Shown here piece by piece: positions 36,901 through 39,900 of a stretch of 64,000 bases of DNA. The DNA is taken from contig OV121087.1 of the NCBI GenBank assembly GCA_921293015.1, positions 42,332,630-42,396,629 on the forward strand. Direction: 5' to 3'. The notes beneath the pieces are model-generated. The model saw only the letters and a list, made by a program, of their open reading frames with translations. It did no database searches and was not told where the DNA came from. The first letter of the stretch is position 1; each line of letters opens with the position of its first letter. This DNA is from Phorcus lineatus (taxonomy: Eukaryota; Mollusca; Gastropoda; Trochida; Trochidae). A program made the translations under genes and the position numbers.

Positions 36901-39900
36901 AATCAAATCCCACTGTATTTGATTTTTGTCAAACTGAAATTCATTATTGGAAAAAAATAAACCGTCTATCTCTCTGGAATGTAATCGATTTCAGACAAGT
37001 TGAATTTCCAAGGATGATTCTTTCACATTAACCACCAATCATTCAATTTTTTTTTACAAAACTTCAGCTAGGAGTGTTCGGAGGTGACTGTTGGAACTGG
37101 AACGAAAACCGGAAGCAGTTCTACTACCACGCTTTCGTAAAGGAACAACCTGACCTCAATTACAGGAACCCGGATGTTGTAAATGACATGAATGTAAGTT
37201 TGGTAAATCGCAATGCCCATTTATTAACTTATTTATTTTGTGTTAAAGCTGACGTATTTCGGTGGAGGCGGTTGGCAGTGGAGTAAGACAAGGAAGCAGT
37301 TTTACTACCATGCTTTTATCAGAGAACAGCCGGATTTGAATTACAGAAATCCGGAGGTTGTTAGGGAGATGGATGTAAGTTGATAACGCGTTGAAAAGAA
37401 ATCTTACCTATGAGGAAAGGGCCATTTTAAAACAAAAATCTCTTGTAAATGTATTCACTTGCGGTGAAAAAATAAGATGCTTTTAGTGAATGTTATGATA
37501 CATTTTATTATAATGTTACCAACAGGGTTTTAAATAAATTAAGGAGTAGGATATCAGGATATATTTTCATATCGCTTGACTTAAATTTCTGAGTTGTTTT
37601 ATCGAATTCAATTTTAACCTTGAAACCATTCCTAACATACGGTGGCATATTAGGACTGTACTAACATGAGGCTCTCACGACTTAAACAAGTTCAGAAAGT
37701 TATAAACATTCAAATTCAAATGTTCGATAAAAGTAGTAAATAGGATTTTATCAGATGAAGTATTTCCAAAATAACAAACATGCCAGTAGCTCAGTAGTTT
37801 ATTTCTGTATTTCAATTGCAATGGATACATTATCAAACCTCCCATAGTGCTACGAAACTTGTATTTATCACATATAAACATTGGAATGCGTGTATATAGC
37901 AAGGTTTTGAAAGTTTCTAGAACAAACGGTCCTAAATGAAAATTATAGCTGTAATCACAGACCTGACACCAGTCGTCACTTTCATAGCTGTGAAATATGA
38001 AGAATATGTTCAATACTAATAAGTTACTTTACAGGATGTTGTACGCTTTTGGATGGACCGGGGTGTGGACGGAATCAGAGTGGACGCGATCATGAAGCTT
38101 TTCGAATCTGAAAATATCTTCCAAGACGAGCCAAGGTCCAATCTGCCTGGAATCCCAGAGGTATTCTATTTTGCGAATACATTTAGATCGATAGTATTAC
38201 CTGATATAAAAAAAGTTATAGGAAGGACGTCTTATAGGAGAGTTCATGTGACAGGCAAAACCTTCACCTCAAGTTACGTTGGGTATGATCGGGTAAACTA
38301 TCTAGAAGCATGAAAAGTCGTCAAGGGCGATGATTTCGCGTCCATTCTTTCATTCCTAATTATCACATAAATAAGCCAGAGCGTTAAAACGATGTAATCA
38401 ACCAAGCAAGATCAAATATATGAAACACTCTATCGCAATGTTCGCACAAACTTATTTTGTTTAAAACAATTTTTATTTACTAAGAAAGGGATCAGCAAAT
38501 AGGCTAACAGTCTATCTTAATATCTCTCCAACACCAAAAATGTATTTATACGATTTATCTTAATTCACCGTCATTGATAATACGCAACCTAAACAACATA
38601 ATAAAACAACAAGAAAAAGCGGTTTGTAAGGATAAATTGATCTTGAGAGGTCTAAAACAAATATGTAGATATGATCAGAAAAAGAATTATTCCACATAAA
38701 CACGATAAAAACCAATCTCAGTTTCAGTACGAATACTTGAATCACATCCACACTGAAAATCTCCCGGAGATCGGCGATGTTGTCCGAGGTTGGAGAAAAA
38801 TCATGGACGAATACGAGGCTAAAGATGGCACGTCGAGGTAAATCAATCTTTACTGGGGAAATAAATTCATGTGACAATCCGTGTTTCCAAAATAATTCCG
38901 ACACTACCAGGAAACTTTCTAAAAATATTCAAGGAAATCACGAGAAAATTCGTACATGCAGAAGCTATCAATGACGTTAAATATATCGGAACATATTGAA
39001 TATTAATATTTCTTCATGAAACCATGGAATCTCTAGATAAGGTTGATGTCGATATATACTGTTACAATTAGAAATAGAGTCAATGATATTAATGCATGTA
39101 TATGAAAAAACAACCTCTTCTATAAGAGCCTGATGACTTACATCATAATCTTAATATTCATGAATATATTGCCTGAAGTCTTCAATTGCCTTATAACTGA
39201 GTAACAAAATGGAAGATGAATATTGAAAAATCAAATGATAATTCTTTCCAGATTCATGATTGTTGAATTGTACGACCCCCCTGCTGTGAGGAACAAATAC
39301 TACGACTATGGATCGATGCCCTTCAACTTTGACCTTGTGATGGATTCCAATGCCGATTGTGGCGGTTCCTGTCTTCGCGACATCCTTGAGAAGGAATACT
39401 CCAATCTTCCTCAGGGTGCCTGGCCAAAATTTGTCGTAGGTCAATGTTTAGAGAACATAAATGTCATTAGATCACATGATACTGGAGATTTTGTAGCAGT
39501 TATGTTACCTTGAAGAGGTCGTGGAAGAGCATTTAGAAAGGGCAGGATAACTTCTTTATTGTAAAAATAACGATATGATTACTCCTTCATCATTGGGACG
39601 GTATTGAAGAGTAAGCATGTACTCCGAAAATTAAGGAAACCTCAATGTCTACCAATATTGCGATAAAAAAAGCAAGAACTGAAACAAAGAGTAAAATTAC
39701 TAAATAAAAACCAATGATAATATGAGAGCTCTAATGGCAGCTAAATTAGCAAAGATTATGAAATGCACATAATGTAAGATATCAAAGCATTGGCATAAGA
39801 TTGATTCTTCCAGCTTGGCAACCATGACCGCAAGCGGGTATCCAAGCGGTTCGGGGTGGAGTTCGTGAGCGTGTACAACATGCTTCTGCTGACCTTGAAG

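Follow-up and report, generated by a model that had tools for sequence, protein, structure and literature searches.

Does a single GH13 gene of the snail Phorcus lineatus give two proteins by taking up one of two adjacent homologous exons, and if so, what keeps both exons from entering the same message? The gene lies in a window of 64,000 nucleotides (C12:42332630-42396629 of a 958 Mb genome), the window being the whole stretch of DNA that was analysed. It is intact, its coding part spans 33969-41836 on the plus strand, and it consists of nine constitutive exons together with either of two alternative exons, termed x1 and x2. The features are as follows, in window positions.

33969..34221, plus strand: coding part of exon 1, encoding the cytoplasmic start and the start of the GH13 barrel; placed by its frame and a GT donor.
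About residues 32-48, encoded in exon 1: the one transmembrane helix, its membrane role judged by inspection.
34670..34849, plus strand: exon 2, constitutive.
35616..35773, plus strand: exon 3, constitutive, with conserved region I (DFVPNH); it ends in PPNNW, phase 0.
37068..37193, plus strand: alternative exon x1, 42 residues, closest to the exon of two abalone proteins (36/42).
37194..37248, plus strand: intron between x1 and x2, 55 nt, with a predicted branch site TATTAAC whose A is at 37227.
37249..37374, plus strand: alternative exon x2, 42 residues.
38035..38160, plus strand: constitutive exon directly after the pair, with the nucleophile D256 (GIRVDAI).
38728..38837, plus strand: constitutive exon.
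39252..39435, plus strand: constitutive exon with the acid/base Glu (MIVELYD).
39814..39999, plus strand: constitutive exon with GNHD and the third catalytic residue.
40408..40542, plus strand: constitutive exon.
41492..41836, plus strand: last exon, with the stop codon.

All junctions are GT-AG and in frame, and the use of x1 or x2 alone gives 600 residues per isoform with no inner stop in either frame. The best protein matches are abalone alpha-glucosidase-like proteins, from Haliotis cracherodii (74% identity) and H. rubra (68%), from which the host would probably be a gastropod other than the abalones sampled. A previous sequence-only reading of this DNA had described x1 and x2 as two exons of 126 nt in phase 0/0, each joining in frame to 35773 upstream and 38035 downstream, and these borders and partners proved exact. 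The constitutive exon at 38035-38160 is likewise 126 nt long in phase 0/0, but it encodes a different part of the enzyme and the agreement is probably a coincidence.

Several other features were seen in the window. Two broken stretches related to non-LTR retroelements lie at 8812-10506 and 30395-31564, with reverse-transcriptase matches (PF00078) at 8812-9678 and 30395-30766 and downstream reading frames that look similar by eye. A reading frame on the minus strand at 2253-2873 matches amiloride-sensitive sodium channels of the ASC/ENaC type (PF00858, E 1.5e-25). One long reading frame at 17473-18831 encodes ankyrin repeats and, at its C-terminal end, a weak SOCS box that stays below the Pfam cut-off, and a CARD domain reading frame (PF00619, E 8.3e-7) lies at 57838-58275. 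RWD and RING-type zinc-finger matches, both below their curated cut-offs, fall at 27293-27820 on the minus strand in a frame that perhaps extends to 25941 and that we take to resemble an RNF14-type ubiquitin ligase.

The two exons agree at 28 of 42 residues, the count given by the sequence-only reading, and at 86 of 126 bases, with the 40 mismatches distributed 9/7/24 over the three codon positions. Estimation by the Nei-Gojobori method gave a pS of 20/23 (0.87) and a pN of 20/103 (0.19). None of 20,000 simulations placing 40 random substitutions in exon x1 kept 28 residues (the best kept 25), and a stop arose in 79% of them; the likeness of x1 and x2 is not chance. The saturation of synonymous sites together with the low protein change demonstrates that x1 and x2 are both old and have evolved under purifying selection, and the same saturation rules out a recent duplication. 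Matches between the 55-nt intron and the outer flanks did not go below E 0.34.

These data bear on the reading that x1 alone is used and that x2 is a skipped or decaying copy. The two abalone proteins show the x1 type only, and the x2 branch is the longer one in a tree of the exon (0.55 vs 0.09), which speaks for such a reading, whereas x2 is free of stops and has both splice sites, with a complete GTAAGT donor and an AG acceptor, and the 28 residues common to both exons were kept despite the saturated synonymous sites. Both copies have long been kept by selection, which a dead exon would not be, and the reading of x2 as a relic is improbable.

The relatives of the exon place the pair in a wider family. 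A genome search with each exon, in which only the best candidates were scored, located it in at least seven places, namely x1, x2 and five other GH13 loci on C12 and C17, and tblastn of the fetched regions found one exon copy at each of the five paralogous loci; a third copy was found neither in the 64-kb window nor among the genome matches scored. The nearest paralogous locus agrees with x1 at 30/42 residues and with x2 at 29/42, compared with 28/42 between x1 and x2. The paralogue at 37.05 Mb is as close to x2 (29/42 residues, 86/126 bases) as x1 is (28/42, 86/126), so that x2 may descend from x1 or from a paralogue.

The exon tree, with 42 columns and 39 rows, comprised 31 of the 120 listed proteins, x1, x2, four paralogue exons of the same genome and two copies from the clam Tegillarca granosa; the fifth paralogue exon was left out as the exons at 27.20 and 27.22 Mb are identical in protein. 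Exon x1 grouped with the abalone exon with support of 99/95, and a clade of x1 and x2 was not rejected (AU p 0.375), so the duplication may be older or younger than the abalone split. No x2-like exon was present among the best 120 of 7995 protein matches, in which the closest to x2 reached 29/42, nor among the best 120 of 354 matches, in which only two abalone proteins exceeded 73% identity. The two abalone orthologues are among these matches, and the use of x2 is thus putative; as entries of the protein database are grouped at 90% identity, an abalone x2 isoform could hide in a cluster and its absence is weak evidence. Isoform-labelled proteins among the matches listed came from Littorina, Gigantopelta, Patella and Haliotis rufescens, the entries being cluster representatives.

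The intron that separates x1 and x2 was described in the sequence-only reading as 55 nt long, with TTAAC as its best branch point and the A at 37227, all of which holds, the A being the 34th intron base. The nine other introns of the same gene measure 378-1294 nt, those of the five paralogous loci 301-2577 nt (34 introns, approximate), and those of a myosin cluster in the same genome 92-387 nt (25 introns, approximate). The 55-nt intron is therefore an outlier against 68 others, mostly approximate, of about 92 nt or more, a sample rather than a genome-wide minimum. The paralogue gaps may span undetected exons (the C17 locus is represented by four exon matches only), and the myosin introns were derived from 41 of 128 matches, namely those of the C2 cluster covering about 237-644 of the profile; as several of these matches contain stops, their borders are approximate. 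The same genome also holds, outside the window at C2:56.25-57.08 Mb, a dense array of myosin-head genes with 13 matches to profile positions about 238-380 on both strands.

In the best branch site, TATTAAC (6/7 to TACTAAC), the A follows the donor by 34 nt and precedes the acceptor by 21 nt. Among the adenosines that keep 13 nt or more to the acceptor, the one furthest from the donor (37235) is 42 nt away from it, so that all such candidates lie within 42 nt of the donor. Branch sites equally good occurred in 7% of shuffled introns, which makes this one a consensus guess and leaves the intron length alone to make the point. Human splicing is reported to need about 50 nt, and a distance of 35 nt to abolish assembly on an E1A intron (PMC6692369), and the exclusive exons of OGDH have branch points 25-41 nt from the donor (PMC7969005). 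The outlying length and the positions of the candidate branch adenosines are compatible with the proposal that the intron is too short for normal spliceosome assembly, but its branch site is predicted and the limit of about 50 nt is mammalian; molluscs could splice shorter introns than mammals do, and the intron sample is small and approximate.

The best explanation of these data can be put as a sequence of steps. An old tandem duplication would have doubled the exon that encodes the distal half of domain B, and each mRNA would carry x1 or x2, never both. The 55-nt intron would be too short for U1 and U2 to assemble together; as both could not fit on it, exon 3 would join x1 or x2, either of these would join the next exon, and x1 would never be joined to x2. 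Mutually exclusive use is probable, as judged from the selection on both copies, the short intron, the single copies at the five paralogous loci and a parallel in a clam, and the sequence-only reading, which had proposed it, is to this extent upheld as a prediction from sequence. The short intron is somewhat favoured as the cause of the exclusion.

Exclusion could instead be brought about by regulators or by intron pairing, as competing RNA structures contribute in other exclusive exons such as those of Dscam (PMC7969005). Pairing between the flanking introns was no stronger here than in shuffled sequence, with shuffles as strong or stronger in 4/30 cases for the upstream-middle pair, 29/30 for the middle-downstream pair and 4/8 for the upstream-downstream pair, and intron pairing was rejected as a splice switch. 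The short intron is moreover a sufficient cause on mammalian rules, and exclusion by other means than the steric one is rather unlikely.

Inclusion of both exons would yield 642 residues and skipping of both 558, in each case with the frame kept and no inner stop; a frameshift therefore does not enforce the exclusion. The frame thus permits a protein with a doubled hairpin, and a gene prediction of T. granosa indeed joins two copies, but this prediction is the only one among 335 proteins in which a motif scan found two QPDLN-like motifs 30-60 residues apart, an intron-free contig matching it has one copy, and the intron between x1 and x2 is too short on mammalian rules. The exon also covers the start of barrel helix alpha-3, so that doubling it should disturb the fold. 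Joint inclusion is highly improbable, and one exon per message is the reading that we infer.

The clam prediction, KUTeg_024528 (P0004), resembles the snail gene in that this 42-residue exon is present twice in tandem, with matching borders: the two consecutive copies are cut at the same residues and are 32/42 identical. It differs in that its copies group apart from x1 and x2 and in that its exon borders are inferred from protein only. In the exon tree the clam copies group together with support of 94/92, just under the starred level, so that their duplication looks independent of that of x1 and x2. A contig of 2019 bases (P0052) encodes 602 residues without an intron and is thus probably derived from mRNA; its 18 mismatches and four gaps against P0004 over 528 columns point to the same or a very close species. 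It contains the second clam copy alone (41/42 to the second, 33/42 to the first), from which it follows that the first copy can be left out, although as one record it does not demonstrate sole use of the first copy. No record of the first clam copy alone was found among the 120 matches listed, and a second Tegillarca prediction (P0224) combines the first copy with a fragmentary second one.

As to the product, the sequence-only reading had allowed for either glucosidases or transporter subunits. The GH13 domain was matched with PF00128 at E 6.9e-123, and the catalytic Asp, Glu and Asp are all present. The neck cysteine of rBAT forms a disulphide with the light chain. In the snail protein, Asp55 stands opposite rBAT Cys114 in the alignment, and cysteines begin only at residue 205 in the x1 isoform and at 354 in the x2 isoform; the neck cysteine of the rBAT-type SLC3 heavy subunit is absent. 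An SLC3-type heavy subunit of an amino-acid transporter could be suspected because rBAT is structurally close, being ranked first by Foldseek with the abalone orthologue, and is matched by sequence at E 4.9e-121. The complete catalytic triad, the lack of the neck cysteine, the presence of an Arg and a His that human rBAT is reported to lack (PMC8537225), and a mosquito salivary alpha-glucosidase as the best PDB sequence match all weaken this alternative, which is distinctly improbable. On these features the product is more likely an enzyme, a type II membrane GH13 alpha-glucosidase close to subfamily 17, than an SLC3 subunit. The third and fourth residues after the nucleophile have been implicated in the sucrose preference of insect enzymes and are Pro-Tyr in AaMalI (PMC13000629); the same two positions are Met-Lys here, so that the substrate cannot be read off.

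Among known proteins, the product resembles the GH13_17 alpha-glucosidases Aedes AaMalI (8slv) and Bombyx sucrose hydrolase (6lga), its best PDB sequence matches, in fold, triad and domain B, whereas the snail gene has in addition an N-terminal membrane helix and two versions of the distal domain B exon. With rBAT (SLC3A1) it has in common a membrane-anchored GH13 ectodomain with a domain B (PMC8537225), and it differs by the missing neck cysteine and the active-site Arg and His.

An AlphaFold2 model of the abalone orthologue (P0001), made with 60 aligned sequences and having a mean pLDDT of 93.8, was used to locate the exon, and the closest solved structures to it by Foldseek were rBAT (rank 1), the Bombyx sucrose hydrolase and the Aedes salivary glucosidase. 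The homologous exon corresponds to residues 194-235, with block pLDDT values of 96-98, and encodes a beta hairpin with strands at 202-205 and 210-213, followed by the QPDLN segment and the beginning of a helix at 228-242. The sequence-only reading had the exon shaping the substrate pocket, with the differences between x1 and x2 clustered in the FGG loop. The clustering is confirmed, as 6 of the 14 residue differences fall within the eight positions 204-211 (FGGxxWxW); this hairpin has DC in x1 vs GG in x2 where 88/120 listed homologues have S and 20/120 have P, the next residue being A in 97/120. The net charge over the exon changes from -2 in x1 to +1 in x2.

The claim on the pocket is upheld in part. 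The pocket residues that QsGH13 has in common with HaG, whose nucleophile is Asp202, are reported to include Phe147 and Phe166 (PMC8928221), and Phe201 and Phe220 of both snail isoforms have the same spacing, 19 residues to each other and 36 to the nucleophile Asp256. The exon, which sits in domain B, thus seems by spacing to encode part of the pocket wall. However, neither Phe differs between x1 and x2, and the catalytic residues are encoded by exons common to both isoforms. The substrate contacts given for the yeast maltase BaAG2 seem to lie outside the exon segment, judged by position relative to the nucleophile (PMC8539097), so a change of specificity is not assured. With their catalytic machinery unchanged, the two proteins would be set apart by the hairpin that overlies the pocket. 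Sugar choice, acceptor or stability may shift as a result, and function is more safely expected to change modestly than completely.

Exclusive exons that arose by tandem duplication are reported to be enriched in ion channels and other membrane proteins and to have evolved repeatedly as a class (PMC9741552), so the snail pair would be new for its unusual gene and not as a kind of system. None of the literature matches listed, a scope mostly outside subscription journals, dealt with exclusive exons of a GH13 gene. The closest mechanistic precedent is mammalian OGDH, in which the intron between duplicated exclusive exons has its branch site less than about 50 nt from the donor (PMC7969005, PMC6692369), and alpha-tropomyosin, taken here from its citation within these two papers only, has the same kind of enforced exclusion. 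Different from both, the gene is another one, the whole intron is 55 nt here and the branch site is predicted rather than mapped. Exons 6a/6e of coq-2 in helminths, annelids and molluscs are also exclusive and of equal length, and they remodel the enzyme core and shift the product (PMC7434440). For coq-2 the exclusive splicing and the effect of exon removal have been demonstrated, making it a demonstrated case in which an exon swap alters the product of an enzyme, whereas the snail pair is known from its DNA.

If exclusive use of x1 and x2 is true, the gene gives two natural glucosidase variants that differ at 14 residues in one module, by which the role of the domain B hairpin could be tested. 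A broader proposal, held tentatively and with less than even confidence, is that the distal domain B exon of membrane GH13 glucosidases may be a recurrent splice switch of molluscs, arisen independently in gastropod and clam at the same borders and offering two substrate pockets per locus to be chosen by tissue or diet. Were this so, the independent-looking duplication at the same borders in the clam would make the exon a candidate hot spot for splice switches.
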